From an uncultured Bacteroidia bacterium (GTDB taxonomy: Bacteria; Bacteroidota; Bacteroidia; Bacteroidales; UBA932): a stretch of DNA of 64,000 bases. A model generated the notes under the pieces. It was given only the letters and a program-made list of their open reading frames with translations. It searched no databases and was not told the DNA's origin. Below are positions 5,188 to 63,691 of the stretch, in pieces. Position 1 is the stretch's first letter; each line of letters opens with the position of its first letter. Position numbers and translations under genes: made by a program. The stretch is from the NCBI GenBank assembly GCA_902766255.1, contig CACXCS010000048.1:17129-81128 (forward strand), written 5' to 3'.

Positions 5188-7591
<2,404 letters not shown>

Positions 7592-40675: not shown

Positions 40676-40683
40676 AACTAGTG

Positions 40684-40691
40684 CAAAAATA
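40684..40691 (-). promoter_or_regulatory. -7 promoter element of the mutarotase-GH127 unit
   Basis: The minus strand reads TATTTTTG, eight bases before the ATG at 40675. Confidence 0.6.
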
Positions 40692-40715
40692 CTAAACTTT
40701 TTCATTATTTTTTTA

Positions 40716-40723
40716 TAATTTTG
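40716..40723 (+). promoter_or_regulatory. -7 promoter element of the glycan-utilisation operon
   Basis: TAATTTTG (TAnnTTTG), 33 bases before the ATG of the permease gene. Its last two bases are the first two of the inverted-repeat operator, so a bound repressor would block it. Confidence 0.65.
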
Positions 40724-40741
40724 CACCACAGTGCACCACAG
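40722..40741. promoter_or_regulatory. Candidate GntR operator, site 1
   Basis: TGCAC-CACA-GTGCA inverted repeat followed by CCACAG, which also makes a tandem TGCACCACAG direct repeat. The same arrangement with changed arm bases (TGTAC...GTACA) occurs at 63503-63522. Position over the -7 box of the permease operon and upstream of the divergent promoter fits a repressor site. Confidence 0.65.
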
Positions 40742-40756: not shown

Positions 40757-41995
40757 ATGAAAGCGTCGTCCAAGTATTATAAATGGGAAGTCCTGGGCCT
40801 GCTCTGGGTAGCGTATCTGCTAAACCAGGGGGACCGCCAGGTCTTCAGCTCGGTGCTTCCCCTGATCCGCGACAGTCTTTCGCTCACAGACACGTCGGTC
40901 AGCCTTATCGCAGTGTTCTTCAATCTCTTCTATGCTCTGATGGTTCCTATTGGAGGATGGGTGGGAGACCGGTTCAGCCGCAAATGGGTTACCACTCTCA
41001 GCATACTGTTCTGGAGCATCGCCACGATGTTCACCGGCCTTGCCAACGGATTCTTGCTGCTGGTTCTTACCCGGTCGGTAGCTACCGGAGGCGGCGAGGC
41101 ATTCTTCGGGCCGGCAAATTACTCACTGCTTGGGCAGTATCATACCGGAACCAGGGCACGCGCCATGTCAATACACCAGACATCCTATTACGTCGGGGTA
41201 ATCCTTGCGGGATGGCTGGCGGGCTATATTGGAGATCACCTTGGGTGGCAGTACGCCTTTTACATCTTCGGCGGAGCCGGGGTCATCTGGGCATTGGTCA
41301 TGGCCGTGCGCCTGAAAGACCTCCCCAGACCCACAACGAGCGGCAGCGGTTCGGCAAAGGTGTCAATATGGGATGGATTTAAAACCGTGTTCACAACGCC
41401 TACGGCCCTCATGGTCACAATAGGCTTTTGCGGATTTATCTTCGTGATCACCGGATACATGACCTGGGTTCCCACTTTCCTTCAGGAGAATTTCGGGCAG
41501 ACAGGTGCACAGGCAGGCCTCCACTCCATGCTTTGGACCTATGCGGCCGCTTTTGCCGGGGTGCTTCTGGCCGGCGTACTTAGTGATAAATGGGCCGCCA
41601 GGAGTCCACGCCTCAGAATGGTAATACAGGGGGCCGGGCTCATACTCGGCGCTGCGTTCCTGCCTTTCATGGGCAGCGTCAGAAGCATTTGGGTCCTGTA
41701 TCTCTGCTTTGCAGGCTGGGGGTTCTTCAGGGCCTTCTTCGATGCCAATATATATGCCGCCCTTTATGATGTTACTCCCGAGCACTTGCATGCATCGTGC
41801 TCGAGCGCAATGATAATGACGGGCTTTGCCGTGGGAGCCACCGCCCCATACATTCTGGCAATAATCAAAGAAGCCACGGGCAGCCTCAACGCAACATTCC
41901 CTATCCTCGGTGCTATTTGGCTGATATGCGGCCTGGCGTGCTTATGGGTCAGCCATGCTCACTATAACAATGATTATTCAAAAATCTACAAATAA
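40757..41995 (+). CDS. MFS sugar permease
   Basis: 412 residues from ATG 40757 (MKASSKYYKWEVLGLLW). About 12 membrane helices with the MFS loop motif GDRFSRKWV after helix 2 and RSVATGGGEAFFGPANY in helix 4, a pattern of hexuronate/sugar-phosphate-type (ACS-like) symporters. It would bring the released monosaccharide or sugar acid into the cytoplasm for the isomerase encoded next. The stop TAA shares its last base with the next ATG. Confidence 0.88.
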   Translation: MKASSKYYKWEVLGLLWVAYLLNQGDRQVFSSVLPLIRDSLSLTDTSVSLIAVFFNLFYALMVPIGGWVGDRFSRKWVTTLSILFWSIATMFTGLANGFLLLVLTRSVATGGGEAFFGPANYSLLGQYHTGTRARAMSIHQTSYYVGVILAGWLAGYIGDHLGWQYAFYIFGGAGVIWALVMAVRLKDLPRPTTSGSGSAKVSIWDGFKTVFTTPTALMVTIGFCGFIFVITGYMTWVPTFLQENFGQTGAQAGLHSMLWTYAAAFAGVLLAGVLSDKWAARSPRLRMVIQGAGLILGAAFLPFMGSVRSIWVLYLCFAGWGFFRAFFDANIYAALYDVTPEHLHASCSSAMIMTGFAVGATAPYILAIIKEATGSLNATFPILGAIWLICGLACLWVSHAHYNNDYSKIYK

Positions 41996-43434
41996 TGGAA
42001 ACATCGAAAAAACAAAGAAAAGCCCGCGCCGGCCTTCTGCTTATTGCCTCGCCCCGTTTCAAGAATCTCAACGGGCCCAAGAGAGGCACTTACCATGAAC
42101 GCAAGCTCAAGGCCGTAGAAGAAATAAAGGAATCGCTTGATTTCCTGGATATTACAGACCCCGGAATTGTGTACGAAAGGGATGATGCCAAGCGCGCGAT
42201 GGATCTTTTCTATAACGCCAAGGTTGACTTCATCTATGCCGAATTCCTTTCCTGGAGCGAGGACTTTGCCTGGATACGTTTTCTGCGTGACTGCCCGGAT
42301 ATACCTATCATCTTTTGCAACGTAGCAAAGCCCAGAATGACCTTCGAGACCACTCTTGACGAGGACGATTTCGTGGATTACCTTTGCGCCGGCACACTTG
42401 TAGGCTCACTCGAGGCATCAGGAAGCATCAAACGAGTACCCCGTAAAGGCGTACGTACCGTTGCCGGAACGCGCAGCCAGATAACGGAAAAGGTGCGGGT
42501 ATTTGCCTGCGCAGCCCGTGCCCGCGCCATCCTTCGGGAATCCAATGTAGGACTCATGGCCAACATGAACGAGGCCATGTGGAGCACTTACATTGATAAT
42601 TACGATCTCTTCACCAAGATCGGCCCCGAAATCCACTATCTTCCTTACAGCGATTACGGAACCGAAATTGAGAATCTCAAACCCGAGGAGGTCAAGGCAT
42701 ACGCTGACGAACTTGCCGGCAGATACAGCATGACTGATGACGTTGAATATGACAAGTTCATAGGCTGCGTCAAAGCCACTCTTGCCATCCAGAAGATGGC
42801 TCAGAAGAACGATATCGACTGCTTTGTGTACAACGACATCGATCAGGCGACATTCCGTACAGCAGGTTGCCGTGCAGGCTTCTATCCGCAGTGGTTCAAC
42901 GAGAATGTGAGCGTACTCGTTCCCGAGGCCGACATAGGTGCAGGCCTTGCCACCTATGTACTCAAGCTCATGAGCGGCAGGAACGTAAACTTTATCGAGC
43001 CCTTCCATATCGAAGATGACTTCGGAACCTTTGCCGGAGGCCACGCAGGTCCAAACGACCACAACGATCCCGCCTGGCAGCAGAACGTAATAATCTCCCG
43101 CGATGTCCGCTTCGCCAAGACAAACTGGAAGTACGCGGGCGCACCGTTCGCATGGTACCGAATAAGCCCCGGAATGAAAACGGTGGCCGGCATCTACGAA
43201 GAAAATGGCCGTTACAAGCTGGTGACTTTCATGGCCGAAAGCCTGCCGGGCAAGCACATGCTCGCCACCTACAGCCATACAATCTTCAAACCGGTCGTAC
43301 CTGTAAAGGAGCTTTTCGAAAAGGTGCTGAACATTGGTACCACCCAGCACTTTGCCGTAGTCGACGGAGACTGGAGGCCACAACTGGAGGCATTTTCTGA
43401 AATAATGGGATTTGATTTTTTCGACATCAGATAA
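41995..43434 (+). CDS. L-fucose/L-arabinose isomerase family protein
   Basis: 479 residues, cytoplasmic. The N-terminal Rossmann-like domain (GLLLIASPRFKNLNGPKRG, AEFLSWSEDFAW) and the C-terminal block (VVDGDWRPQLEAFSEIMG) fit FucI/AraA-like enzymes. PEADIGAGLATYVLKLMSG is the conserved metal-site region. It would convert an aldose to a ketose. The exact sugar is not predictable; the divergence from FucI proper is considerable. Translationally coupled to the permease (TAATG). Confidence 0.75.
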   Translation: METSKKQRKARAGLLLIASPRFKNLNGPKRGTYHERKLKAVEEIKESLDFLDITDPGIVYERDDAKRAMDLFYNAKVDFIYAEFLSWSEDFAWIRFLRDCPDIPIIFCNVAKPRMTFETTLDEDDFVDYLCAGTLVGSLEASGSIKRVPRKGVRTVAGTRSQITEKVRVFACAARARAILRESNVGLMANMNEAMWSTYIDNYDLFTKIGPEIHYLPYSDYGTEIENLKPEEVKAYADELAGRYSMTDDVEYDKFIGCVKATLAIQKMAQKNDIDCFVYNDIDQATFRTAGCRAGFYPQWFNENVSVLVPEADIGAGLATYVLKLMSGRNVNFIEPFHIEDDFGTFAGGHAGPNDHNDPAWQQNVIISRDVRFAKTNWKYAGAPFAWYRISPGMKTVAGIYEENGRYKLVTFMAESLPGKHMLATYSHTIFKPVVPVKELFEKVLNIGTTQHFAVVDGDWRPQLEAFSEIMGFDFFDIR

Positions 43435-43440
43435 GAGAGT

Positions 43441-45312
43441 ATGAGTTTCATGTACAACCCCTTCCCCTATCACGACCCCAAACCCGTGAACAGGCCGGAA
43501 CTGTCAGATAAAACCGTAGGATCAATTGTGGCCGGGGGCACGCCAAATGTTGCCAAGAAGTTAGTGGGCTCCCTTGCCTCTGCCGCGGCAAAAGAGGGTG
43601 TCGTGGTAGCATTCGACGGGTACACGGCAACAAAATGGGACCTGCTCATGAGCCTGATGTCCCGCGAATGCGACTTGCTTGGGTTGGCATTCGAATCCAT
43701 CGACATCAATTCGGCGACACTGAAAAGCGAAGCGGAGATTGACTCCATTATCAACCCCATGCTCATCTGGGACACTCAGATAGATCCAACGCTGCTATAT
43801 GGCAAAGTGTACCACGGAGGATATGCCGGGTTGATCGACAGCAATAAGGCAGAAGCTTTTATAAATGAACTGCCATCACATAAAGCCCCCAAAAAGATCG
43901 TGGCGGTTTATGGATACGGCGCCCTGACCAGGGAATTCCGCAGGATGTACGATATCAAGTGCTGGTTCGACATCACCCCGATGAATGCCATGCTCCGTAT
44001 CCGCGCCGGAGAGTATGCCAACCTGGGCAAGAAGCACACAGGTATCATCAACCGCACCATACGCCGCTGTTACTACTGTGACTTCGAGAATGCTGTTCAA
44101 CTGCGCAAAGAACTCTTCGCATGCGGGGAACTCGACTGGTACTTTCTCGACAACGACAGGGCTAATCTGCAGATGATGCCTTTCAGCAGCTTCTCCGATA
44201 TTTGCGCACAGCTTGTCAAATATCCCTTCCGGGCCAAGCCCTGCTACCTCGAAGGCGTTTGGGGCGGAACATACATGAAGAGCCTGCGGCATCTGCCCGA
44301 GAAGATGCGCAATGCTGCCTGGGTATTCGATTTCATTCCCATGGAGGTCAGCGTTCTGGTGGAGGCTGGGTCTGAAAAACTGGACATCAACTATTGCTCC
44401 TTCGTGCATAAAGAGGGCGTGAACCTTATGGGGCAGAAATGCGTCGACAAGTACAAAGGGTACTTCCCCATTCGTTTCAACTGGGACGACAGCTACCATT
44501 CCACAGGCAACATGAGCATCCAGTGCCACTCCGGCGGAAAGTTCAACGTAGATAACTACAATGAGTTCGGCCGTCAGGACGAAAGTTACTACGTCGTCAT
44601 CACCGGGCATGAGGCGAAAACCTTCATCGGATTCCGCGACGACGCCGACATACCGGCGTTCTTCAGGGAAATCGAAGCTGCCGATACTGAGCATAAGCCA
44701 TGCGACTACATGAAATATGTAAGCTACGAAGAGTCAAAACCAGGCCTGCAGGTAATGCTTCCTGCCGGAACCATCCACTCCAGCGGCCGAAACCAGGTCA
44801 TCCTTGAAATAGGTTCGCTTACGATAGGTTCATACACCTATAAGATGTACGACTACTTGAGGCTTGACTTCGACGGCAAGCAGAGACCGATTCACACTCG
44901 TCTGGGCGAACTGAACGTAAACCAGAACCGCCGAGCCTCAGTCATACATGATCCCGGGAGCAAAGACTACATTGTCCAGCGGCCCCGCCTTGACTGCGAA
45001 GGCGATGGATGGAAGGAATTCATTCTTGGCGAGAATCCTCAGATGTACATATCCTTGAGGCGGCTGGAATTTGATAAGACCTGCGCACAAGACACCCGCG
45101 GAGAGAAGTTCCACGTCCTCACTCTGGTTGACGGCGAACACATACGCATAAGGAGCGTAGAAAACCCCGGCCGCTATTTCGACCTTGACTTTATGGAAAT
45201 AGCCTGCGTACCGGCATCTATGGGCAAATACGTGATCGAGAACTTGGGCAAGGAACCTATACGAGTACACAAAACCTGTCTGAGAGATGGATATGAAAAC
45301 GATCCTGCTTGA
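43441..45312 (+). CDS. Class I mannose-6-phosphate isomerase-like protein with kinase-like N-terminal domain
   Basis: 623 residues. Residues ~300-560 are cupin-like with the ManA metal ligands in place: IQCH (Gln and His), DESYYVV (Glu) and AGTIHSSG (His). The N-terminal ~300 residues resemble a P-loop kinase fold but lack a Walker A, with only VVVAFDGYTATKWDLL in that position. It probably isomerises a phosphorylated ketose/aldose produced by the neighbouring isomerase and ROK kinase. It starts six bases after the isomerase and overlaps the ROK gene by 26 bases. Confidence 0.7.
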   Translation: MSFMYNPFPYHDPKPVNRPELSDKTVGSIVAGGTPNVAKKLVGSLASAAAKEGVVVAFDGYTATKWDLLMSLMSRECDLLGLAFESIDINSATLKSEAEIDSIINPMLIWDTQIDPTLLYGKVYHGGYAGLIDSNKAEAFINELPSHKAPKKIVAVYGYGALTREFRRMYDIKCWFDITPMNAMLRIRAGEYANLGKKHTGIINRTIRRCYYCDFENAVQLRKELFACGELDWYFLDNDRANLQMMPFSSFSDICAQLVKYPFRAKPCYLEGVWGGTYMKSLRHLPEKMRNAAWVFDFIPMEVSVLVEAGSEKLDINYCSFVHKEGVNLMGQKCVDKYKGYFPIRFNWDDSYHSTGNMSIQCHSGGKFNVDNYNEFGRQDESYYVVITGHEAKTFIGFRDDADIPAFFREIEAADTEHKPCDYMKYVSYEESKPGLQVMLPAGTIHSSGRNQVILEIGSLTIGSYTYKMYDYLRLDFDGKQRPIHTRLGELNVNQNRRASVIHDPGSKDYIVQRPRLDCEGDGWKEFILGENPQMYISLRRLEFDKTCAQDTRGEKFHVLTLVDGEHIRIRSVENPGRYFDLDFMEIACVPASMGKYVIENLGKEPIRVHKTCLRDGYENDPA

Positions 45313-46099
45313 CGTAGGAGGCACTTTCATCAAAAGTGCCGGCGGGACCCAGATTCCCTCACGTTCGAACGGCAGCCGCGAGGAAATAGCGCATGCGCTG
45401 CAGAAGGCCATAGGGCCCGCCGACGGACTTGAAGGGATAGGGGTTTCTATCCCCGGTCCCTTCGACTACAATGAGGGCAGGTTCCTGATGAAACACAAGT
45501 TTGCCGCAGTTTACGGAGAGCGTTTCGAAGATTTATGCAATCTGGGGCAGAGCCGGAAAATCCAATTCAAATACTTACATGACGTAAACGCCCCGCTGCT
45601 AGGGGCGGTCAAGATGCTTGGGCTGCAGGACTGCAATGCAGCACTGATCACTATAGGTACCGGACTTGGCTTCAGCTATGCTGTCCGCGGGAGCGTGCAA
45701 GTCAGTTACAACGGTTCTCCCGCCTTCTCTTTATGGAACCGCCCATGCAAAGATGGTATACTTGAAGATGTGGTCTCGGCCCGCGGAATCTGTGCTGCAT
45801 ACGCCCGTTCCGGAGGCGATATCAGCCTGAGTGCCAAAGAGATATCCCAAAGGGCATACGCTGGAGAGCAATTGGCCCTGGAAGTGTATGGGACTATGGG
45901 GTCGTGCCTCGCACAAGTTCTCCAGGATCTTGCCCGCAAGCTGGAACTCGATGTTCTGCTGTTCGGCGGGCAGGTTTCCTCTTCACTGAGCCTTTTCGAA
46001 AAGCCCCTCCGTGATGTTCTCGGTCCAGTATGGATAGAGGCTGTTCCCCAGGGAGCCGTGTTCGAAGGTTTGTCAAGCTTGTTTACAAACAAATTATAA
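45287..46099 (+). CDS. ROK-family sugar kinase
   Basis: 270 residues; ATG 45287 or ATG 45293. ATP-binding DVGGTFIKSA, catalytic Asp in LHDVNAPLLGAVK and ITIGTGLGFSY are ROK features. The zinc motif CxCGxxGCxE is degenerate: only CKDGILEDVVSARG remains. It would phosphorylate the imported monosaccharide. A terminal palindrome TTGTTT-AC-AAACAA sits at 46079-46092 before susC. Confidence 0.78.
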   Translation: MDMKTILLDVGGTFIKSAGGTQIPSRSNGSREEIAHALQKAIGPADGLEGIGVSIPGPFDYNEGRFLMKHKFAAVYGERFEDLCNLGQSRKIQFKYLHDVNAPLLGAVKMLGLQDCNAALITIGTGLGFSYAVRGSVQVSYNGSPAFSLWNRPCKDGILEDVVSARGICAAYARSGGDISLSAKEISQRAYAGEQLALEVYGTMGSCLAQVLQDLARKLELDVLLFGGQVSSSLSLFEKPLRDVLGPVWIEAVPQGAVFEGLSSLFTNKL

Positions 46100-46110
46100 T
46101 TGATAATTAT
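46079..46110. promoter_or_regulatory. Two AT-rich inverted repeats at the SusC start
   Basis: TTGTTT-AC-AAACAA (46079-46092) and ATAATT-GAT-AATTAT (46096-46110); the second reaches into the ATG at 46109. They could influence susC translation or mark an internal promoter. No -7 box was recognised. Confidence 0.35.
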
Positions 46111-49100
46111 GACACTGATAAAGCGACTCAGCATTGCTGCAATCTTTGTTATGGCCGGCCTGGGACTGTCCGTTCCCTTGCTCTCCCAGACCAGGGAACT
46201 CAGCGGCGTTGTGCTGGACGAGACCGACCTTGGCGTTCCCGGGGCATACGTTCAGTTCAAAGGCGGGACAGGAGGTGCAATGACCGACCTGGACGGACGC
46301 TTCACCATCAAGGCCAAAAGCGGGGACGTACTGGTGGTCTCCTTCCTCGGCTACGCTGACGAGGAGGTCACGGTAGCCGACCAGAAGGAGCTCATTATCA
46401 AGCTTGTACCCCAAGCCAACGAGCTCGAGGGCGTTATCAAGGTTGCCTATGGCACCCAGAAGAAGGCTTCCGTCATAGGCTCCATCACCACCATTGACGC
46501 CGGCCAGCTGCAGGCTCCCATTGGCCAGCTTTCCACTGGCCTGGCAGGCAAACTCGCCGGCATCGTGGCTGTACAGCATACCGGTGAGCCAGGCTCCAGC
46601 GCCGAGTTCTGGATCCGTGGTGTCAACACCTTCGGAGCCAACGCCTACCCGCTCATCCTCGTGGACGGCGTAGAAAGGGCAATGGACCTTGTGGATGTCG
46701 AGGATATCGCCTCGTTCTCCATCCTTAAAGACGCCACCGCCACAGCGCTTTACGGTGTTCGCGGAGCCAACGGCATAGTGCTCATCACCACCAAGCGCGG
46801 CGCCGAATCTAAACCCAAGGTAAGCGCGAAGGTGGAAACCGGCATAACTTCTCCGACTCGCCTTCCACAGATGGCCACGGCCGAGCAGTTCATCGATTAC
46901 CTCAACACCATGCAGCCGGGCACAATCGACGAATATGCCAAAAGGATGTACCTCAGCGGTCAGAACCCCGACCTGTACCCCAACGTCAACTGGATCCACG
47001 AGATCTTCAAGGAGCAGGCAATGACCACCAAGGCCAATGTCAACGTTACCGGCGGCACCAAGAACGTACGTTACTATGCCGGTGGTTCCTACTACTTCGA
47101 AGATGGTATCTTCAATGTAGAAAGGAACGACCGCTATAACGCCCAGATGAACTTCAGCAAGTTCAACTTCCGCACCAACGTAGACATCAACATCACCCCG
47201 TCCACCACCCTCGGGATGGACATTTCCACCCAGTTCACAAAGAAGAACCGCCCGGGCAGCGACATCAGCGAGATATACGCCTACACGATGCAGATTACCC
47301 CTATCGGCTTCCCGAAGGTTTTCTCCAACGGCACCCTTTCCAATCCCGAGAACGGCTCCAACCCTTACAACCTCATCAACAACATGGGCTACGCCGTGGC
47401 GTCTTCGCAAAACGCCCAGACCACCGTGGCCCTCACACAGGACTTCTCCGAGATCCTGACCGAGGGGCTTACCGCAAAAGTACAGGTCTCCTGGGATGCC
47501 AGAAGCAACTCTTCTTATACAAACTCAATACGCCCCAGGGTGTACTTCCTCGCATGGGATAATGACATCAAGGACTACGTATACCAGCTTCAGGGCAGCA
47601 GCGGCACGGGATACATCAACAAGTCAGGCACATCCATAGACGGACAGACGGTTCTCAACGTAGAGGCATCCGCCAACTACGAGCGCACATTCGCAAGCAA
47701 GCACAGAGTGGGAGCCATGTTCCTTTGGTACCTGCGCGAGCGCACCTCCCTGAATCCTGAAAGTTACTGGACCACATTCCCTTACAAGAGCCTGGGAATC
47801 GCCGGCCGTACAACCTACAGCTACGCCGACCGCTATTTCGCCGAGTTCAACTTCGGTTACAACGGCAGCGAGAATTTCGCTCCCGGCCACCGCTTCGGCT
47901 TCTTTCCTTCCGGGGCCGTGGGCTGGATAATCTCCAACGAGAACTTCTGGGAGCCACTCAAAGATGCCGTCAGCCTGTTCAAGGTCAAGGCCTCCATAGG
48001 CAAGGTCGGTAACGACCAGATAGGCGGCGGCAGGCGCTTCGGCTACATCACCACCATGGATACGAGCGGAATCGGTGGCTTCAACTGGGGCCTTACCAAT
48101 CCGGTATACACCACCGGCGTTGCCACAGGCGATATAGGCAACCCCGGTATCGTGTGGGAGGAGGCTCTCAAACGGAACGTCGGTATCGAGCTCAACTTCT
48201 GGCGCGACCATCTCAAACTGCAGTTCGACTATTTCAATGACTACCGCAGCGGCATCTTCATCACCCGCGAGTCCATGCCGAGCGTAGTCGGTCTGCGCAA
48301 GACTCAATATATCAACATTGGCGAGATGCAGAACGCCGGTTTTGACGCATCTGCTCAGTTTGACTACCTTTTCAGCGGAGGGCTGTCGTTCTCTGCCCGA
48401 GGCAACTTCACTTTCAACCGCAACCGCCGCGTGTTCGACGACAAGCCCAGTCAGGTGTGGGCTTACCAGAACACGGCCCTCTTTGCCAACAACCAGCAAA
48501 GGGGACTCATAGCGGAAGGCCTGTTCAGCAGCCAGGAAGAAATTGATACCTGGCCCGTCCAGACCTTCGGCAGCGTGCAGCCCGGCGACATTAAGTACCG
48601 CGACATCAACGGCGACTGTCAGATAGACAGTTACGATGCTGTGGCTATTGGCTATACCACCGTTCCTGAAATCAACTACGGCTTCGGCATCTCCCTGGGA
48701 TGGAAGGGCTTCGACGCCAGCGTCTTTTTCAGCGGCGTAAGCCATGTGACCCGTTTCATAGGCGGATACAACCTTTACGGCGGCGCCGCCACCAATGTGC
48801 TCGTCCAGGGCCAGGTATTCGCCGACGTAATCGAAAAAAGCTGGTCGGTGACCCACGACCCGGGCGCCGAGTATCCCCGCTTCTCGGTGGAAACTCCCGC
48901 CAACAACCAGGTCCGTTCATCTTACTGGCAGAAGGACATGAGTTTCCTGCGTTTCAAGAACGCCGAGTTCGGTTACACCCTGCCCAAGAACCTCACAAAG
49001 AAGGCGGGCATATCCACGCTCCGCATCTACCTGCAGGGAGTCAATCTCCTGACTTTCTCAAAGTTCAAGCTATGGGACCCCGAGCTGGAATCTTCTTACG

Positions 49101-51196: not shown

Positions 51197-51197
51197 T

Positions 51198-53204: not shown

Positions 53205-53207
53205 AAA

Positions 53208-54749
53208 ATGCGCTTCCGCTGTTTCATAACGGCATTCCTTCTCCTCGCGCTGGCCTCATGCAAGCCAGGGGAGAAGGAAACTGTTTATGAACCGGCAGTA
53301 CGGCTGGAACTGCAGGATGTATCTGCACACACAGCCTCATTCGCGCTCAAAACTGTAGATGCTGCCAGCGTCAAGTACGGAGTCGGTACGTCCGAGGCAC
53401 CCGTGATGGACAAGGAGATCCAAACAGAAACCACCGGACCCTCCGACCTTACACTTTCCGTTGGAGAGCTTGCCTCCGACACGGTCTACCGCATTTGTTA
53501 TCAAGGTATCGGCCCCGGAGGGGAGACCGGGAGCATGCAGGTTCTGGAGTTCCGGACCACGATTGGATCATCGCAGCTATACTCCTGGGAGAAAAAGCGT
53601 ACCGGCGTTCTGTCTTTCGCCGATATATCGCTGATTACCCTTGGACAGCACAACATTAATCCTCCGCTCTGGACCAAGGAGCGGTTTGCCTCGCACGTGA
53701 GTTACACCGACATGGGCGGTACGCCCCACTGGCTGTTTGATGCCTTCCTGTGCATCGACGGGTTCGACGGCACCAGGGGCCTGAGCCTGAGCATCGCCAA
53801 TGGTAAGAAGTCGGCGGTCAAGGAATCCTGGGAGGATCTGCTCGAGGCCTGGCTTGGCGATGACGGGGCTCTGCGCAAGCTCGACGCAGCTATTTCCGAC
53901 GCCAGTGCAGCGCTCGGCACCCCTCCACGCCCGCGTTATGTGGTGATGAGCCTGCCCGACCCTATCATGTTCCAGTTCTTCAGCGACAAAAACTCTCCTA
54001 CCAACTACTGGGGCGAGCTTAACGGACGCCGGATGGACTTTTCCAAGATTGAGGATCAGCAGGCTGCGTACCGATGGTATGCAAACCGCTGCCGTGCAAG
54101 GTTCAACAGTCTGGGGTTCAGATATTTGGAACTTGCAGGCTTCTACATTCTGTCGGAAGAGCTGCCACTTGCGCCCGACTTCTACAAGCAGTGCGGGAAG
54201 TCCTTTGACAATGCCGACACATGGAACTGGCAATACAAGCGCTGGGAGCAGCTGATACCTTGGTTGGCGGACTTTTTACATTCGTGCAACGAAGGCCTGT
54301 GGTGGATACCATACCACCTCGCCCCCGGATACCGCGTTTGGGAAGAGCTCGGCTTTGATGCCGCTTTCATGCAACCCAATCACTACTGGGACAACGGCAG
54401 CACTCAGCACCCAATGAGCAAAACTGTAGATGCCATCAAACGCTACCGGCTGGGAATGGAACTGGAATTCGAATACTCATTGGTCGCTGACGTAATGAAA
54501 GACGGCCGTGCCGGGCCCGACGGCAGCGGCAATCCCACCTTCTACCTTACGGATGTCCCTATGCTGCGGGGCCGCCTGCGTGAATATTTTGCCGGCTATA
54601 AAGAGAGCGGCCTGTACGGGGTGATCCCCCTGGCCGTATATTCCGGCACCGACGCGATGCATCAGCTTGCAAGTTCAAAAGATATTGACGATATTGCAAT
54701 GTATCACGAGCTCTGCCGCTTCATAATCGATTCGCCCTTGAAGAAATGA
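53208..54749 (+). CDS. DUF4855 lipoprotein with N-terminal Ig/FN3-like domain
   Basis: 513 residues, lipobox ALASCKPG. Residues ~25-115 are an FN3-like domain (VYRICYQGIGPGGETG). The rest is DUF4855: HWLFDAFLCIDGFDG, VVMSLPDPIMFQFF, ELAGFYILSEEL, LWWIPYHLAPGY, FMQPNHYWDN and GMELEFEYS. The block of conserved acidic residues and WIPY/LAPGY suggests a TIM-barrel glycosidase, but no activity is established for the family. It is a paralogue of the next gene (roughly 45% identity by eye) and its stop overlaps that gene's start (ATGA). Confidence 0.75.
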   Translation: MRFRCFITAFLLLALASCKPGEKETVYEPAVRLELQDVSAHTASFALKTVDAASVKYGVGTSEAPVMDKEIQTETTGPSDLTLSVGELASDTVYRICYQGIGPGGETGSMQVLEFRTTIGSSQLYSWEKKRTGVLSFADISLITLGQHNINPPLWTKERFASHVSYTDMGGTPHWLFDAFLCIDGFDGTRGLSLSIANGKKSAVKESWEDLLEAWLGDDGALRKLDAAISDASAALGTPPRPRYVVMSLPDPIMFQFFSDKNSPTNYWGELNGRRMDFSKIEDQQAAYRWYANRCRARFNSLGFRYLELAGFYILSEELPLAPDFYKQCGKSFDNADTWNWQYKRWEQLIPWLADFLHSCNEGLWWIPYHLAPGYRVWEELGFDAAFMQPNHYWDNGSTQHPMSKTVDAIKRYRLGMELEFEYSLVADVMKDGRAGPDGSGNPTFYLTDVPMLRGRLREYFAGYKESGLYGVIPLAVYSGTDAMHQLASSKDIDDIAMYHELCRFIIDSPLKK

Positions 54750-55921
54750 AGTATAAGTTATTGTTCCTAACTATGTTGCTTACGGCATGTGCGTCCGCTC
54801 CGGGACCCACGCAAGTACCTGTACTGCGAGACCTCGACCTCGTGGGCTACTGGCACCGCGAACCTCGTGTCTGGGATGCAGAAAGATTTGCCCCTCATGT
54901 GAGTTGGAAAGCCCCGGACGGTAGCGAGCAGTGGCTCTTCGACGCCTTCCTCTTCCTCGAGGGCTACGACAATGTCCACGGCAAGACGCTCACGATTTCA
55001 CCCAGCGGCATCTCGGCTGGAAAAGCCGAATGGGAATATCAGCTCGACCTCTGGCTGGGTCCTCAAGGCAGCGTTGCCCAACTTGACAAAGCTTGTGCGG
55101 CTGCAGCGGAACGCATTGGAGAGCCCGGCAGCAAGCGCATGGTAGTCATAGGCATCCCCGACGCAATCATGTTCGAGGAATTCGGCAACAAGCAATCCTC
55201 AACAGTGTATTGGGGCGACGGGCTGGACTTCGCTCTTGTAGAGAACCGCATCAAGGCATACAAGTGGTACATCGACGAGGCCAGGAACCGCTTCAAGGCC
55301 TTGGGCTGCAAGTACTTGTCCTTGGCAGGTTTCTACATCACCTCAGAGGACATCCATCTCCCTTACGACGTAGATGTCAACAGCCGTTACAAAAACTGGG
55401 AAACCATCATTCCTGCTGTTGCATCGTATTGTCATGATAAGGCTCAGGGGCTCTACTGGATACCCTATAATCTGGCTCCAGGATACAAGTTCTGGAAGGA
55501 ACTCGGCTTCGACCAGGCGTGGATGCAGCCCAACTGGTACTGGAACCTCCATGACAATGACCGTCATCCTTTCAGCAACACTGTCAAGGCTATCCAGGAA
55601 GCGGACATGAGCGGCATGGAGCTGGAGTTAGAATACTCCTGCGTGGCTGCTGAAATGGAGGACGGCAAGATGGGGCCTGACAGCGCCGGAAAGATGATAT
55701 TCAGCGCCTCGGATGTCCCCGCCCTGCAAGACCGTCTGCGCCGTTACATGCAGGAATTCAAGGACGCCGGATTCTATGGCAGGCGCTCGATAGCCTTGTA
55801 CAGCGGCAGCAATGCCCTTACACAACTAGCCACCTCTCCCATTCAGGCGGACAGAGCCCTCTACGATGAACTATGTGAATTCATCATAGGCTCCCGCAGT
55901 ACGCAAATAACTGAACAGTAA
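54746..55921 (+). CDS. DUF4855 lipoprotein, tandem paralogue
   Basis: 391 residues, lipobox LLTACASA. It lacks the FN3-like domain of the preceding gene but shares the DUF4855 core: QWLFDAFLFLEGYDN, VVIGIPDAIMFEEF, LAGFYITSEDI, LYWIPYNLAPGY, WMQPNWYWN and GMELELEYS. Invariant acids between the two copies (Glu in the SE of the AGFYI block, GMELE) are candidate catalytic residues. Tandem duplication with domain loss suggests differentiated substrate specificity. Confidence 0.75.
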   Translation: MKYKLLFLTMLLTACASAPGPTQVPVLRDLDLVGYWHREPRVWDAERFAPHVSWKAPDGSEQWLFDAFLFLEGYDNVHGKTLTISPSGISAGKAEWEYQLDLWLGPQGSVAQLDKACAAAAERIGEPGSKRMVVIGIPDAIMFEEFGNKQSSTVYWGDGLDFALVENRIKAYKWYIDEARNRFKALGCKYLSLAGFYITSEDIHLPYDVDVNSRYKNWETIIPAVASYCHDKAQGLYWIPYNLAPGYKFWKELGFDQAWMQPNWYWNLHDNDRHPFSNTVKAIQEADMSGMELELEYSCVAAEMEDGKMGPDSAGKMIFSASDVPALQDRLRRYMQEFKDAGFYGRRSIALYSGSNALTQLATSPIQADRALYDELCEFIIGSRSTQITEQ

Positions 55922-55927
55922 TTACTT

Positions 55928-58096
55928 ATGCGAAAGCATCATATCAATGCCAGAATCTTCCGTCCGACGGCACTATTTGCCGTCCTGATCTTTATGATTG
56001 CTGCCTGCAAGAATGAAGACCAGCCGGAGAGTAACTGCGACCATCCCACTTCATGGGCGTGGGTTGCCGGAGATGGAGTTTGCGCCGCAGTTGACCAGCA
56101 TACCGGAGCTCTTGAGTTTCTCGGCCAGAGCCAGGATGGCTACAATTATGCCGGAGGGGGCGGACTGTGGCGCCTGTATTATAATACCCTGGAAAGAAAA
56201 GAGATAGAAATAACTCCTGACGAGGCAGTGCCTGCAGTGAGCATGGCCGGGGATACCCTGCAGATTGACTATAACTCCCTGGGCGGCAAAGCCTTCGCCA
56301 TGCAACTGAAAGTCTGGCCGGAAAACGGGCAGCTGAGGTTCGGCGCAAAGGTTACCAACAACGAGCCCCATACGATCATCCGCGAGCTCCAGTACCCGCT
56401 GATAAGCAACCTGCAATTGCCAGAGGGCCATAAACTGCTTACCACGCATACCGGCGGCCAGATATTCGACGACCCGCTGGAAACTATTGCCAACGTAAAC
56501 ACCAGAGCACTATACATGACGCCGGCCCAGAAGTTCCGGCAGTATGATCTGCAGTACCCTCGGAACGCCGCATCAAACTGCTTTGCATTCGTAGGAGAGC
56601 AAAATGGCCTGTACTTCGGCTCGCACGACACCAGCCTCCAGCAGACCTGGCATGGTTTGCGCGCTTATCCTGACAAAGGCACCATCGGGCATCAGACATC
56701 TGACTTCAAGCATCTGGAAGCAGGCTTTTACCGTTATCCCAACGCGATGTGCGGGGAAGTCTGGCACGACGATTCCTCGGTTATCGTTCCTTACGAAGGC
56801 GACTGGACCCAAACCTGCCGCATCTACCGCCGCTGGGCCGACACCTGGTGGGAGCACGCTCCCGTACCCAATTGGGTGCAGGACATGACCGGCTGGCAGC
56901 GTATCATCTTCAAGCACCAGTATGGCGAGTACCTTCGCCGCTACACCGACCTTCCGGGGCACATAGCCGAAGTAGGAGAATCGGTAGGATGCAACGCCGT
57001 ACTTGCCTTCGGCTGGTGGAAAGAAGGTATGGACAACGGCTATCCCAACTATACCGTCGACGACACCCAGGGCGGCGACGCCGCATGGAAGCAGGCCATA
57101 AAGGATTACCGTGCCCGGGGCGGCCGTCTGTTGCTGTACTACAACGGACGGCTCATAGATGTGGAGAGTGATTTCTACCTTTCGGGCCAGGGCGCCAAGG
57201 TATCCAACCACGACAACACGGGAAGGGAATTTACCGAGCACTACAAATTCACCGGCGAAGGTACTGCCCTTGGTTACTACGACTCCCGCACTTTCGTAAT
57301 CGCCGACATGTCAAAGCGCTCATGGCGTGACCAGCTGATAGCCTGGGCAGACAGGGCTATGGATTACGGTGCCGATGCAGTATTCTACGACCAGCTTGGA
57401 GTGGCCGAGGAGTTCCCTAACTGGGATCTTTCGGGCGAGTTCCCCGTGCAGGACATCTTTACCGGGCGTTACAAAGCCGAGGCACTGCAAGAAATCCGCG
57501 ATCATATCAAGGCAATTGATCCCGAGTTCGCACTCGGCACCGAATGGCTCTCAGACTGCACGAGCCGGTTCTGCGACTTTGTACATATCGTAGAATTCAC
57601 CGCCCTGCCCGAGAGTTTCCCGGAATGGTTCCGTTACACCTTCCCGGAGGTAGTATGGAGCGACCGGTGCGTAAGGGACGACAACGACGTCCCCCGCCGA
57701 GTCAACAACACACTGCTCAAGGGCCTGCGCAACGACATAGAAGTATTCCGTTGCCGTGGCCTTATTGACGAAACTCCTGTGTATCAGGAACATCTGGCCA
57801 AGGTCAACGCCATACGCCACCGTTTCCCCCAGCTTCTGCTGGAGGGCCGCTACACTGCATGCGACGGCTTCAGCTGCAGCAACAAGGCTATTACCGCCCG
57901 CAGCTACACCGCAGGCGACCAGCTGGCGGTAGTGGCAACCAATACCGGAGACAAACGCGCCCAGGGAAGCATCTCCGTTCCGGGCTATGTCTTAAAAGAG
58001 AACGCGACCATAGGCAACCCGTCGGTCAGCGGCAACAAGCTCTCTCTCGGAACCAACGATCTTGTAGTGTTAGTATTTGAAAAACAAGCCGAATGA
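55928..58096 (+). CDS. DUF6259 lipoprotein, predicted glycoside hydrolase
   Basis: 722 residues, lipobox MIAACKNE. An N-terminal beta-sandwich (~35-300) is followed by a TIM-barrel-like region with VLAFGWWKEGMDNGYPNY, AMDYGADAVFYDQLGVAEE and TEWLSDCTSRFCDFVH, then a C-terminal beta domain. The FYDQ and TEWLSD positions resemble nucleophile/acid pairs of clan-D type hydrolases; this is inference. DUF6259 proteins are recurrent in glycan loci but lack a defined activity. The stop overlaps the GH20 start. Confidence 0.7.
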   Translation: MRKHHINARIFRPTALFAVLIFMIAACKNEDQPESNCDHPTSWAWVAGDGVCAAVDQHTGALEFLGQSQDGYNYAGGGGLWRLYYNTLERKEIEITPDEAVPAVSMAGDTLQIDYNSLGGKAFAMQLKVWPENGQLRFGAKVTNNEPHTIIRELQYPLISNLQLPEGHKLLTTHTGGQIFDDPLETIANVNTRALYMTPAQKFRQYDLQYPRNAASNCFAFVGEQNGLYFGSHDTSLQQTWHGLRAYPDKGTIGHQTSDFKHLEAGFYRYPNAMCGEVWHDDSSVIVPYEGDWTQTCRIYRRWADTWWEHAPVPNWVQDMTGWQRIIFKHQYGEYLRRYTDLPGHIAEVGESVGCNAVLAFGWWKEGMDNGYPNYTVDDTQGGDAAWKQAIKDYRARGGRLLLYYNGRLIDVESDFYLSGQGAKVSNHDNTGREFTEHYKFTGEGTALGYYDSRTFVIADMSKRSWRDQLIAWADRAMDYGADAVFYDQLGVAEEFPNWDLSGEFPVQDIFTGRYKAEALQEIRDHIKAIDPEFALGTEWLSDCTSRFCDFVHIVEFTALPESFPEWFRYTFPEVVWSDRCVRDDNDVPRRVNNTLLKGLRNDIEVFRCRGLIDETPVYQEHLAKVNAIRHRFPQLLLEGRYTACDGFSCSNKAITARSYTAGDQLAVVATNTGDKRAQGSISVPGYVLKENATIGNPSVSGNKLSLGTNDLVVLVFEKQAE

Positions 58097-59598
58097 TTAC
58101 TGTTCTTCTATTCTGCCTGCTCCAGCTCATCCCTCTTCCGGTAGAGTTCACCCCGGAACAGGGTGTCTGTACGGCAGACAGGATTACCGTCAAGCAATGC
58201 GGACGCTCTTTCAAACGCGCTACGGCGGACTTGGAAGCTTTCCAGAAGCAGGAGGCATACAGGCTCACGATAAAGCCCGGGAGCATAGTAATCGAGGCGC
58301 TCTCCACCGAGGGCGAATTCCGGGCCCGCAAAAGCATAGAGCAGATGCGCCTGACATGCAGCGACCTTCCCTGCTGCACCATCACCGACTGGCCCAGATT
58401 CAGGCACAGGGGCCTCATGCTTGACGAGAGCCGAAGTTTCAAGGGCGTGGAGTTCATAAAGAAGCAGATCGATGCCATGGCTCTGCTGAAACTCAATGTA
58501 TTACATCTGCATCTTGATGACTCTGCAGGATGGCGCATACAGATTGACAGCTATCCCGACCTTACCGCCAAAACAGCATGGCGCATAGGCTGGGACTATT
58601 TTGCGTGGGAGAAGGGCGGATACAAGTTAGCGGCAGAAGGTGCGCCCGGAGCCAGCGGAGGTTTCTATTCCAAGGAAGATCTTAAAGAAATCGTTGCTTA
58701 TGCAGCACAGCGATTCATCACAGTCATCCCAGAAATAGAAATGCCCGGGCACAGCATGGAAGTTGGGTACGCCTATCCGGAGGTGCTGTGCACCACTCCT
58801 CAAGGCAGAGTGCGCAAAGGGGCATGGGATCTATGTCCCGGCTCCGAAGCCACTTTCAAGCTGCTTGAGAGCGTACTGAAAGAGGTCATGGACATCTTCC
58901 CCTCCCCGCTCATCCACATAGGCGGAGACGAGGCCACCATGAAAACATGGCACGACTGCCCTGCCTGCCGGGCCCGTATGGAGCAGGAAGGATACACCGA
59001 CGTAAGGCAGCTGCAGGGATACATGATACGCCGTATCGAAAAATTCGTACGCAGCCACGGCCGCCGCATCATAGGATGGGACGAGATTCTGGAAACGGGA
59101 GTGCCCAAGGACGCCGTCATCCAGAGCTGGCGTGGAGTTTCGGGAGGCATTAATGCATCAAAGGCAGGACACGAAGTGGTAATGTCTCCAAACACCCACT
59201 GTTATTACAATTACTATCAAGACCTTATACGCAAGGAGCCGGCAGCCTGCGGCGAGCTGGTATCGCTGCGGTTTACCTATGGTTACGAGCCGGTGGCCGC
59301 CGGCATGGACCCGGCCAGGGTCAGGGGTGTTCAGGCCAATCTGTGGTGCGAATATATCCCCACGCCCAAACATGCCGAATACATGCTGTACCCCAGGCTT
59401 TTTGCTCTTGCCGAGACTGCATGGAGTCCCGCAGAACGAAAGGAATACAAAGCATTCCGACGACGCGCCCTCAATCTGCTGGAGGCCTTCCGCAAAATTG
59501 GTTACAACACTTTCGACATGTCCACAGAGTCCGATCTGGCCCGTTCGGGCATGCAGCGCTTCCCTCCCGAGGGAGTGCCAATAATTGTGGATGATTGA
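58093..59598 (+). CDS. GH20 beta-N-acetylhexosaminidase
   Basis: 501 residues. An N-terminal GH20b domain (LIPLPVEFTPEQG) with a short hydrophobic lead that may be a signal peptide is followed by the barrel: GLMLDESRSF, LHLHLDDSAGWRIQ, EIEMPGHSMEV, and the catalytic pair in HIGGDEATMK (Asp279, Glu280). SWRGVSGGINASKAGHEVVMS and LWCEYIPT fit the +1 wall. It releases terminal beta-GlcNAc/GalNAc by substrate-assisted catalysis. It is the last enzyme before the regulator gene. Confidence 0.92.
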   Translation: MITVLLFCLLQLIPLPVEFTPEQGVCTADRITVKQCGRSFKRATADLEAFQKQEAYRLTIKPGSIVIEALSTEGEFRARKSIEQMRLTCSDLPCCTITDWPRFRHRGLMLDESRSFKGVEFIKKQIDAMALLKLNVLHLHLDDSAGWRIQIDSYPDLTAKTAWRIGWDYFAWEKGGYKLAAEGAPGASGGFYSKEDLKEIVAYAAQRFITVIPEIEMPGHSMEVGYAYPEVLCTTPQGRVRKGAWDLCPGSEATFKLLESVLKEVMDIFPSPLIHIGGDEATMKTWHDCPACRARMEQEGYTDVRQLQGYMIRRIEKFVRSHGRRIIGWDEILETGVPKDAVIQSWRGVSGGINASKAGHEVVMSPNTHCYYNYYQDLIRKEPAACGELVSLRFTYGYEPVAAGMDPARVRGVQANLWCEYIPTPKHAEYMLYPRLFALAETAWSPAERKEYKAFRRRALNLLEAFRKIGYNTFDMSTESDLARSGMQRFPPEGVPIIVDD

Positions 59599-59599
59599 T

Positions 59600-59607
59600 T
59601 ATATTTG
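59600..59607 (+). promoter_or_regulatory. -7 promoter element of the GntR gene
   Basis: TATATTTG, six bases before the ATG at 59614; lies at and just after the GH20 stop. Confidence 0.6.
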
Positions 59608-59613
59608 TACATT

Positions 59614-60639
59614 ATGAAGATTACCATTGACATTAACGGCAAAGAGCCTATTTATAAGCAGCTGGTAGCGCTGGTAGAGCGTGCATACCACGATGGTACA
59701 TTGTCTGCAGGAGAGTTGTTGCCTTCCATGAACGACCTTGCCGACTCGTCGGGTATTTCCCGCGAAACCGTAAAGAAGGCGTATAAGATTCTTACCGACA
59801 AGGGAATTATCCTGCCCAAACAAGGCAAAGGGTTCTACGTTGCCGACGTTAACGACGTATCCAAACCCAAGGTCCTCGTCATCTTCGATAAATTCTCGGT
59901 ATACAAGCAGATTCTGTTCAACTCTTTTGTGGGTCATCTTGGAGATAATGCCGAGATAACGATAGTCAATCACAACCAGAGCGTGGAACTGCTACAGTTC
60001 TATCTGGACAATTATCTTGACAACTTCGATTACTATGTAGTCACTCCGCATTTCCCTCTTGACTCATTTTCACAGGAGAAAGCCACAAAGCAGCTTGCCC
60101 GTATCCCGAACCGCAAACTAATCATGCTGGACCGCCTTCAACCTGATTTTGCGGGCAACTTCGGCGCCGTTTATCAGGATTTTGAAAACGACATCTACTC
60201 CGGGCTTTCGGAGGGGTGGACCAGCGGTAATATTCCTTCCCGGCTAAGGGTTATCACTTTACCTTCCTCTCTTTACGGCAAATGCATCCGCAAGGGCGTA
60301 GAAAAGTTTGCCACGGACAGAGGCATAGAGGCAGAATTCTTGACTGCTGCGCCGGAGTCGGTAAGCAAAGGTGATGTATTCCTCGTCCTGAATTCCCAAA
60401 TGGACGCTGGCCTGGTTGCATTGGCACAAAACATAGGTAAAGCCGGGCTGAAAATCGGGAGCGACGTTAAAATAATTTCCTACAATGAGTATGACATGAA
60501 CGAACTTGTCCTCGGTGGGCTCACTACGGTATCCACAGATTTCCGTCTTATGGGGGAACTTGCTGCTGATATGATACTTACACACAAACCGAGTAAGATT
60601 CACTGTCCATTCAGAATGATACGCCGAAATACATATTAG
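59614..60639 (+). CDS. GntR-family regulator with LacI-type sugar-binding domain
   Basis: 341 residues from ATG 59614 (MKITIDINGKEPIYKQL). The N-terminal winged helix-turn-helix of GntR type (GELLPSMNDLADSSGISRETVKKAY) is followed from ~75 by a periplasmic-binding-protein-like effector domain (PKVLVIFDKFSVYKQILFN, ISYNEYDMNELVLGGLTTVS). The architecture resembles the FucR-type regulators of Bacteroides fucose operons. It probably represses the glycan operon until its sugar binds. Candidate operators are at 40722-40741 and 63503-63522. Confidence 0.88.
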   Translation: MKITIDINGKEPIYKQLVALVERAYHDGTLSAGELLPSMNDLADSSGISRETVKKAYKILTDKGIILPKQGKGFYVADVNDVSKPKVLVIFDKFSVYKQILFNSFVGHLGDNAEITIVNHNQSVELLQFYLDNYLDNFDYYVVTPHFPLDSFSQEKATKQLARIPNRKLIMLDRLQPDFAGNFGAVYQDFENDIYSGLSEGWTSGNIPSRLRVITLPSSLYGKCIRKGVEKFATDRGIEAEFLTAAPESVSKGDVFLVLNSQMDAGLVALAQNIGKAGLKIGSDVKIISYNEYDMNELVLGGLTTVSTDFRLMGELAADMILTHKPSKIHCPFRMIRRNTY

Positions 60640-63496: not shown

Positions 63497-63502
63497 CATA
63501 TC

Positions 63503-63522
63503 TGTACCACAGTACACCACAG
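63503..63522. promoter_or_regulatory. Candidate GntR operator, site 2
   Basis: TGTAC-CACA-GTACA followed by CCACAG. Relative to site 1, the C at arm position 3 becomes T and the paired G becomes A, keeping the inverted repeat. It lies about at the transcription start of the last unit. Confidence 0.6.
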
Positions 63523-63678: not shown

Positions 63679-63691
63679 AAGAGAGACGATT

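Follow-up and report, generated by a model that had tools for sequence, protein, structure and literature searches.

A conserved Sus-type locus of gut Bacteroidales with DUF4855 and DUF6259 proteins: a possible system for phosphodiester-bearing glycans

Introduction

Which glycan would be taken up by a polysaccharide-utilisation locus (PUL) that carries three lipoprotein-type proteins to which no activity has been assigned, and which sugar would the cell finally obtain from it? The question is raised by positions 40757-60639 of a stretch of 64,000 nucleotides (hereafter the window) from an uncultured Bacteroidia bacterium, which an earlier note, made from the letters alone, described as a glycan locus acting on a substrate with N-acetylhexosamine and a rare aldose, such as arabinofuranose or fucose. 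Literature searches found no functional studies of DUF4855 or DUF6259, the families of these three proteins, nothing relevant on phosphodiester glycosidases or NAGPA (for the latter judged by title, among the records listed) in polysaccharide utilization, and nothing on DUF4434. We know of no earlier PUL type dedicated to phosphodiester-linked polysaccharides, and phosphodiester glycans are, to our knowledge, a nutrient class not usually linked to PULs.

Extent and conservation of the locus

Positions 40757-60639 are a real PUL of the Sus type, predicted to serve for a glycan. Over 40721/40757-60639 the open reading frames are long and co-directional on the + strand, and they encode an MFS transporter, an isomerase, a ManA-like protein, a ROK kinase, SusC, SusD, a DUF1735 protein, two DUF4855 proteins, a DUF6259 protein, a GH20 enzyme and a GntR regulator (Table 1). 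The SusC and SusD homologues adjoin (46100-51196), and the carbohydrate-active enzymes GH20 and GH127 and a GntR/LacI-type regulator are linked to them in a conserved manner. The families proposed in the earlier note (SusC/SusD, DUF1735, DUF4855 twice, DUF6259, GH20, ROK) are all found by Pfam or NCBIfam, its isomerase and ManA-like protein are borne out by profiles, and the three lipoprotein-type proteins of unassigned activity are indeed there; the GH127 gene, which it had placed within 40757-60639, exists, but at 37855-39879, outside that interval. The true extent of the PUL is in fact larger, with GH127 and P0016 upstream and a NAGPA-domain protein downstream, after which the contig ends within an open reading frame whose place in relatives is held by a protein with a partial match to the DUF1735 protein. 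The earlier note names neither the MFS gene, the regulator, P0016 nor the NAGPA protein, and it does not touch on the predicted operator, the fusions, the phosphodiester theme or this full extent.

Table 1. Features of the locus, in positions of the window
Feature	Position	Strand	Evidence
GH127 (beta-L-arabinofuranosidase family)	37855..39879	-	PF07944 + PF20736 above cut-off; PDB 5mqo/4qjy matches
P0016, conserved protein between GH127 and MFS	39824..40729	-	cluster conservation
Predicted promoter/operator, TAnnTTTG + ACCACA direct repeat	40716..40740	+	motif conservation
MFS transporter	40757..41995	+	PF07690 (MFS_1) 177 bits; present in 66/80 loci
Predicted AraA-superfamily aldose isomerase (ISOM)	41995..43434	+	hhalign to AraA
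ManA-like protein	43441..45312	+	PDB 1qwr (type I phosphomannose isomerase) E 5.8e-16
ROK sugar kinase	45287..46099	+	PF00480 46 bits
SusC TonB-dependent transporter	46100..49156	+	TIGR04056 (NCBIfam OMP_RagA_SusC) 945 bits; SusC-type plug + barrel in Pfam
SusD protein	49157..51196	+	PF07980 (SusD_RagB), PF14322
DUF1735 (BT_3987-like_N) lipoprotein	51198..53204	+	PF08522 84 bits; lipobox IAGC
DUF4855a lipoprotein	53208..54749	+	PF16147 196 bits; lipobox LASC; invariant acids
DUF4855b lipoprotein	54746..55921	+	PF16147 196 bits; lipobox LTAC
DUF6259 lipoprotein, clan GH-D-like	55928..58096	+	PF19773 72 bits; lipobox IAAC
GH20 beta-N-acetylhexosaminidase	58093..59598	+	PF00728 355 bits; GGDE at 277
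GntR DNA-binding + LacI-type sugar-binding regulator	59605..60639	+	PF00392, PF13377 (Peripla_BP_3)
Phosphodiester glycosidase (NAGPA) domain protein	60805..63219	+	PF09992 71 bits vs cut-off 25; DGGGST at 773
Second, weaker predicted operator copy, 2 substitutions	63497..63521	+	follows TAccTTTG box
Lipoprotein-like ORF start, cut by contig end	63662..64000	+	partial DUF1735-protein match at this place in relatives

The gene set is not a product of chance, because the group is conserved, in places rearranged, across relatives. Of 162 relatives, 80 loci from gut Bacteroidales were kept (46 of them from records that name a ruminant host), and across these the isomerase homologues are 73-87% identical; the gene counts come from a tblastn-based table that misses some genes, for example the isomerase of L103. 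DUF4855 clusters numbered 52, further partial matches inside the listed clusters being left out of this figure, and in 16 of the 40 regions fetched the order SusC-SusD-DUF1735-DUF4855-DUF6259 is maintained, while L107 has all the genes except GH127 and P0016 in a different arrangement. The SusC/SusD pair, the DUF1735 lipoprotein, the exported hydrolases and the linked regulator are those of Sus-type PULs of Bacteroidota; what departs from the usual form are the DUF4855/DUF6259 enzymes, the NAGPA/EEP fusions of the relatives and the module of isomerase, phosphomannose isomerase (PMI) and ROK kinase.

Surface proteins and exported enzymes

Capture of the glycan at the surface would fall to SusC/SusD and the DUF1735 protein, the latter a probable surface glycan-binding lipoprotein; SusD has a Cys past the signal stretch, yet does not match the simple lipobox pattern. 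The exported cutting enzymes would be the two DUF4855 proteins, DUF6259, GH20, the NAGPA-domain phosphodiester glycosidase and, probably, GH127.

In the AlphaFold2 model of DUF4855b (pLDDT 85.5) strands and helices alternate as in a (beta/alpha)8 barrel, and D29, E201, E292 and E294 (DUF4855b numbering) are present in 20 of 20 DUF4855 sequences, both window proteins included, with the glutamates placed after strand 4 (E201) and in strand 7 (E292/E294). Because of this predicted barrel and of the invariant glutamates at strands 4 and 7, DUF4855 is probably a glycoside hydrolase. Its PDB matches are TIM barrels, weak and mixed (TM on query 0.30-0.46), and it lacks the Asn-Glu motif that we take to be typical of clan GH-A.

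DUF6259 resembles clan GH-D in a low-confidence model (pLDDT 60), in which the invariant D488, a candidate for one of the clan's two catalytic aspartates, adjoins a strand, and could be an alpha-acting exo-enzyme of GH36/GH27-like type. Its best Foldseek matches are GH36, GH129, GH101 and GH27-type enzymes (E down to 2e-15, TM on query <0.5), alpha-galactosidases and alpha-N-acetylgalactosaminidases among them, from which it differs in having its own Pfam family and in an identity of 8-14% among the matches listed.

In GH127, E-L-C at 326 and CCAC at 409 align, in their E-x-C and CC, with 5mqo, and presumably form the Glu/Cys zinc site with the catalytic Cys; a homologue lies inside the fetched flanks of 31 of the 80 related loci. 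The neighboring P0016 has no Pfam, NCBIfam or PDB-profile match, its single-linkage cluster covers 45 of the 80 loci (a few members with odd starts), and a homologue adjoins GH127 or ROK in many among the 26 loci listed. To the eye only, P0016 is mutarotase-like.

A possible phosphodiester theme

The protein that follows the regulator, as its close homologues do in several relatives, shares PF09992 and DGGGST with NAGPA (GlcNAc-1-phosphodiester alpha-N-acetylglucosaminidase) and differs from it in a long N-terminal part, the domain occupying residues 678-802 of 804; it is probably a lipoprotein, with a Cys near the signal stretch outside the simple lipobox pattern. In relatives, such domains are joined to the enzymes themselves. 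In 10 of the 16 syntenic relatives a single open frame runs through DUF4855b and DUF6259, and once through NAGPA as well (among the other six, L195 and L200 are possibly truncated where the contig stops); DUF4855 is fused to NAGPA in L091; in L085 and L099 the C-terminus of DUF6259 is phosphoesterase-like (EEP), with 30-31% identity to an Exo_endo_phos protein; and GH89-EEP is found in 4 of 6 extended relatives, by positions, with Pfam on one. NAGPA lies within 12 kb of 24 of the 52 DUF4855 clusters, where about 3% would be expected for uniform placement, an expectation that does not allow for a PUL background; the remaining 28 have none within that distance, some of them interrupted by the end of a contig. 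EEP genes are common: each of 20 genomes has 3 to 22 of them.

That glycosidase-type enzymes are joined time and again to NAGPA or phosphoesterase domains suggests a phosphodiester-bearing N-acetylhexosamine glycan as the substrate. Both families include proteins of other or unknown function, so the phosphodiester reading draws on family names and linkage. The N-acetylhexosamine component itself, already proposed in the earlier note, is backed by GH20, by NAGPA and by GH89 in some relatives.

Proposed sugar import and cytoplasmic module

One freed neutral aldose would be imported by the MFS porter, whose frame is open from 40721 with an ATG, at 40757, downstream of the operator. The isomerase would then convert the aldose to a ketose, the ROK kinase would add a phosphate, and the ManA-like protein would interconvert the product.

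The isomerase has no Pfam or NCBIfam match, the AraA and SftI models included; direct blastp gave no AraA match, and a first PDB profile search reached E 0.04 at best. Compared by hhalign with L-arabinose isomerase AraA, it aligns over its full length (E 8.2e-8, 421 columns), with E311, E335, H350 and H452 identical in four columns that we take to be the AraA metal ligands, and by this collinear homology and these ligands it is a predicted member of the AraA superfamily. That comparison excludes two wrong-frame ORFs (L139, L140) and a fragment (L006); comparisons that included the one or the other gave E 0.0014 in one case and, in another, 0.017 for the isomerase alone and 2.6e-8 with distant homologues. 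Two distant homologues match both the AraA and the sulfoquinovose isomerase (SftI) models of NCBIfam below cut-off, while the partner genes of the window isomerase differ from those of either. FucI was rejected (hhalign E 0.06, probability 0.9%; Fucose_iso_N1 absent from the organism's own genome). A rare aldose is plausible, most likely of L-arabino/D-galacto configuration, which is favored over the L-fucose once suggested because the isomerase aligns with AraA and not with FucI, and because GH127 keeps its E-x-C/CC residues.

The ManA-like protein alone has no Pfam or NCBIfam match; in the region aligned to 1qwr, Q361, H363, E381 and H446 are invariant in 6 sequences, and this Q-H-E-H set is presumably the cupin metal site of type I phosphomannose isomerases. 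Its N-terminal region (41-196) is weakly like a kinase-type P-loop protein, 1rz3 ("hypothetical protein RBSTP0775", E 0.006), which we take to be uridine-kinase-like. It is not an ordinary ManA, the long form being distinct from the short ManA-type proteins: some match to it occurs in 368 of 393 genomes from the order, and among the matches listed most are of the short type, covering about 257-490 at 25-30% identity. Searches of PDB sequences by phmmer with P0001, P0006 and P0007 singly gave nothing useful. The combination of isomerase, ROK and ManA-like protein differs from the canonical arabinose pathway, and an AraA-type isomerase with ROK and PMI is the canonical pathway of no sugar that we can name.

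Proposed function and alternative explanations

We read the locus, tentatively and with slightly less than even confidence, as a PUL for phosphoglycan, which would capture and cleave a phosphodiester N-acetylhexosamine glycan, feed a dedicated aldose pathway and be governed by its own repressor. The target would most likely be an N-acetylhexosamine glycan containing sugar-1-phosphate diester linkages (a microbial phosphoglycan or a teichoic-acid-like polymer) or, alternatively, a host-type N-acetylhexosamine glycan bearing sugar-1-phosphate diester groups.

A somewhat improbable alternative is that the substrate is a host glycan, such as a mucin or salivary O-glycan, from which GH89, DUF6259, GH20 and DUF4855 would strip alpha-GlcNAc, alpha-Gal/GalNAc and beta-HexNAc caps, the NAGPA and phosphoesterase domains not being glycan-cleaving. 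It is consistent with the GH89 found near DUF4855 in some relatives, with the alpha-GalNAc enzymes among the best fold matches of DUF6259, and with Bacteroides thetaiotaomicron BT0438-BT0454, described as holding GH89 (BT0438), SusC/D, DUF4855 (BT0442, near the GH89 gene), an MFS sugar porter and family-10-like proteins (PMC10434189). By that description SusC/D, DUF4855 and the MFS porter are common to both loci, whereas the passage on it names no isomerase, ManA-like protein, ROK, DUF6259, GntR or GH127 (PMC10434189). However, the repeated NAGPA and EEP fusions, the AraA-type isomerase and GH127 would be left unaccounted for, and no fucosidase, sialidase or sulfatase family was found among the 20 window proteins scanned with Pfam. 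Quite unlikely, in our estimate, is a plant glycan decorated with Araf/Arap (for example, extensin-type material or arabinogalactan side chains), from which GH127 and DUF6259 would free L-arabinose for the AraA-like isomerase, with GH20 and NAGPA as peripheral members. The intact GH127 residues, the superfamily of the isomerase and the beta-arabinopyranosidase 5xfm among the DUF6259 matches point in this direction, as does a genome, 81% complete, in which no AraA_N match was found, though ribulokinase and AraD are present. These two, however, lie on contigs other than that of the module, which brings ROK and ManA-like genes of its own; AraA could sit in the missing part of the genome, canonical AraA being present in 6 of the 21 genomes searched; and GH20, GH89, NAGPA and EEP would remain unexplained.

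Very unlikely, finally, is a rumen-bacterial exopolysaccharide with an unusual hexose, for example altrose, for which isomerase, ROK and ManA-like protein would be the dedicated pathway. From what is known of the families, ROK and PMI fit a 6-phosphohexose route, and the share of ruminant records among the related loci agrees with such a source. L-altrose is reported from the exopolysaccharide of rumen Butyrivibrio (PMC4392319), but a direct link between the locus and altrose is absent.

Beyond the phosphoglycan reading lies a wider and unlikely proposal, namely, that DUF4855 represents a new family of glycoside hydrolases which, in many cases fused to DUF6259 and sometimes to NAGPA, would form a surface machine acting on glycans with sugar-1-phosphodiesters (teichoic-acid-like polymers or phosphoglycans of rumen microbes) and feed a rare-sugar pathway of isomerase, ROK and PMI. 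The phosphoglycan reading itself, if right, would give (i) a first function class for DUF4855 and DUF6259; (ii) a testable PUL for phosphodiester glycans; (iii) and a so far unrecognised module for sugar catabolism in Bacteroidales of the gut, many of them ruminant-derived.

Predicted operator and regulator

The phosphoglycan reading also includes a control step, in which the sugar or its phosphate would cause the GntR/LacI-type repressor to dissociate from the ACCACA repeats that overlie the promoter; we infer this pairing of regulator and predicted operator from sequence. Of 72 related loci, 48 have the motif, with up to 3 substitutions, at most 1.7 kb upstream of the isomerase, and 24 lack it; elsewhere it had 13 matches in 2.85 million strand-bases, and a stricter form had 0 in shuffles. 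The predicted operator could be used for finding the whole regulon of the module. For the window alone, 12 of 100 shuffles gave at least 2 operator-like sites (up to 3 mismatches), so two sites there are not beyond chance. Two of the 6 extended relatives, L218 and L222, have a motif similar to the second, weaker copy ahead of their corresponding lipoprotein, and a homologue of the GntR regulator stands beside the same operator in the distant relative L049.

Extent and conservation of the locus

The genes named in the earlier note for a Sus-type polysaccharide-utilisation locus (PUL) were borne out as open reading frames (ORFs) by ORF and domain searches of the window, and both gene content and linkage show that the PUL is real and conserved in relatives. 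Overlap or abutment is common between the genes of the main run, whose regulator combines GntR with a LacI-type sugar-binding domain. Two further genes had been missed, P0016 and that of a protein with a phosphodiester-glycosidase domain (NAGPA), and the enzymes fit together better than the first reading could show. The window ends where the contig ends, and the PUL is therefore truncated; searches of the window revealed neither a tRNA nor an Rfam family at gathering score.

Features of the locus and of the surrounding window
Feature	Position	Strand	Remark
LptF/LptG permease domain with Formyl_trans_N and _C	5177-7591	-	one ORF of 804 aa, through fusion or a lost stop
GH127	37855-39879	opposite to main gene run	
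P0016	39824-40729	-	between GH127 and MFS gene; conserved, no family match found
Predicted operator	40716		
Main gene run	40757-60639	+	MFS, isomerase, ManA-like, ROK, SusC, SusD, DUF1735, two DUF4855, DUF6259, GH20, GntR
Isomerase	41995-43434		AraA superfamily
ManA-like	43441-45312		
Short ORF	near 60643		seems, by eye, to lie before NAGPA gene; similar to that at 63553
NAGPA-domain protein	60805-63219		domain search
Predicted operator, weaker	63497		ahead of last, cut ORF
Short ORF	63553-63679		about 41 codons, just before last lipoprotein-like ORF, 3' of weaker operator

A scan with the isomerase over named bacterial genomes gave 162 relatives, and in the record titles of the best 80 of these a ruminant host is named in 46, a horse in one and no host in 33. 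By tblastn over these 80 loci, with flanks of up to 10 kb that cut off distant genes and make every count a lower bound, the isomerase was found in at least 79, the ManA-like protein in 76, MFS in 66, ROK in 64, SusC in 48, SusD in 40, DUF1735 in 36, GH127 in 31, GntR in 21, NAGPA in 14, DUF4855a and DUF6259 in 13 each, GH20 in 4 and DUF4855b in 1. One locus (L107) has GH20, GntR, DUF6259, two DUF4855 genes, NAGPA and the genes for transport and catabolism, all arranged differently, with neither GH127 nor P0016 in the tblastn table of its fetched region. A distant member of the same family (G207) retains the isomerase (58%), the ManA-like protein (48%), ROK, MFS and GntR, together with a SusC/D pair (25-30%) and DUF6259 (25%), and has a calcineurin-like phosphoesterase in addition.

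DUF4855 occurs in 37 of 398 genomes of the taxonomic family (8/99 in a smaller draw), and in a class-wide sample of 198 genomes in the present one only. Regions were fetched for 40 of the 52 DUF4855 clusters, and 16 of these 40 regions keep the order SusC-SusD-DUF1735-DUF4855-DUF6259, with ROK in 12 of these syntenic relatives, GntR in 13 and NAGPA in 12; the remaining 24 regions are other PULs or are cut, and include GH89 in four and GH20 in four. In a same-genus genome, a second DUF4855 gene (L052:11100-12334) appears as two separate ORFs near a PUL with GH89, NAGPA and GH20.

The catabolic module

In the initial PDB profile search, L-arabinose isomerase reached an E-value of only 0.04, and direct blastp between the isomerase and AraA gave no match; hhalign aligned the two at full length (E 8.2e-8, and 1.4e-14 once two distant homologues were added), and gave no alignment with FucI. 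E311, E335, H350 and H452 are the same residues in AraA sequences, and the two distant homologues match the models of AraA and of the sulfoquinovose isomerase SftI, both below the cut-off. In the ManA-like protein, an N-terminal region weakly like 1rz3 precedes a preserved Q-H-E-H site, as in type I phosphomannose isomerases. Neither AraA_N nor Fucose_iso_N1 has a match in the genome itself (81% complete), where AraD and ribulokinase sit on other contigs, and contig C23 (L047:1-1813) carries a second, contig-cut ManA-like copy (90% identical over 303-623) followed by ROK (51%).

Among the relatives, L071, L082 and L086 show an alternative partner set: after the isomerase come a 679-aa protein that matches no Pfam family and a GH39-like one. 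A sugar porter, an AGE-type epimerase and DUF4434 repeatedly adjoin the module in mixed combinations (L068, L076, L094, L118, L218, L219, L223); the B. thetaiotaomicron locus BT0446-BT0454 likewise has a sugar porter and family-10-like proteins (PMC10434189).

Surface enzymes and the probable substrate

The DUF4855b model (pLDDT 85.5) is a barrel of alternating strands and helices. In an alignment of 20 DUF4855 sequences, both window proteins included, D29, E201, E292 and E294 are the only acids shared by every sequence, among columns with a single gap or none; in the model, E201 follows strand 4 (191-198) and E292/E294 lie inside strand 7 (290-294). The acid/base and nucleophile of clan GH-A are placed in this way, although DUF4855 lacks the Asn that precedes the acid/base there, and the PDB structures that it matches, all weakly, are of several kinds (GH53, sugar epimerases, tryptophan synthase, GH18, GH20, GH84). 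DUF4855 is classed here as a probable glycoside hydrolase outside any known family. For DUF6259, whose model is of low confidence (pLDDT 60), the top Foldseek matches are a galactosaminidase and GH36 alpha-galactosidases, followed by GH129-, GH101- and GH27-type enzymes and others including GH97 and GH13; our best guess is an alpha-acting, clan GH-D-like enzyme. GH20 retains GGDE, NAGPA DGGGST and GH127 its E-x-C/CC residues. L-arabino and D-galacto sugars are favoured by clan GH-D exo-enzymes, GH127 and AraA alike, and their agreement here is suggestive only.

DUF4855b and DUF6259, separate genes in the window (same frame, 6 bases between, DUF6259 with its own lipobox), share a single stop-free frame in 10 of the 16 syntenic relatives, nine of these frames being of 1056-1147 aa and the tenth, in L198, running on into a NAGPA domain (1362 aa); among the other six, L195 and L200 may be contig-cut. 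A fused DUF4855-NAGPA protein occurs in L091, and in L085 and L099 DUF6259 is joined to a C-terminus that shares 30-31% identity with an Exo_endo_phos (EEP) protein. Four of the six relatives viewed past the NAGPA position have, 3' of it, a GH89 alpha-N-acetylglucosaminidase with an EEP-matching C-terminus, a call resting on positions for the four and a Pfam run on one. Of the 52 DUF4855 clusters, which come from 37 genomes, 24 have a NAGPA gene no more than 12 kb away and 28 have none, about 3% being expected under uniform placement of 112 NAGPA genes, a control that leaves PUL clustering outside.

The substrate class is most likely an N-acetylhexosamine glycan with phosphodiester links. The main rival is that the substrate is a host glycan. 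Among the open-access papers searched, DUF4855 turned up in a single one, where the protein BT0442 is listed near the GH89 gene BT0438 (PMC10434189), and none mentioned DUF6259, PF16147 or PF19773. BT_0439 is described as implicated in host glycan degradation (PMC5238430).

A shared predicted operator

TAnnTTTG, which we take to be the Bacteroidota -7 box, followed by an ACCACA direct repeat, stands upstream of the MFS-isomerase operon in 48 of the 72 loci with enough upstream sequence. Elsewhere in 2.85 million strand-bases the motif has 13 matches, of which several likewise precede related genes, and a stricter form was absent from mononucleotide shuffles (five of each of 80 loci). Two such sites in the window alone are within chance (12 of 100 shuffles). 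The GntR protein, we infer, binds this operator, which in G207 lies between SusC and GntR, and in two of the six extended relatives (L218, L222) the motif stands ahead of the corresponding lipoprotein.
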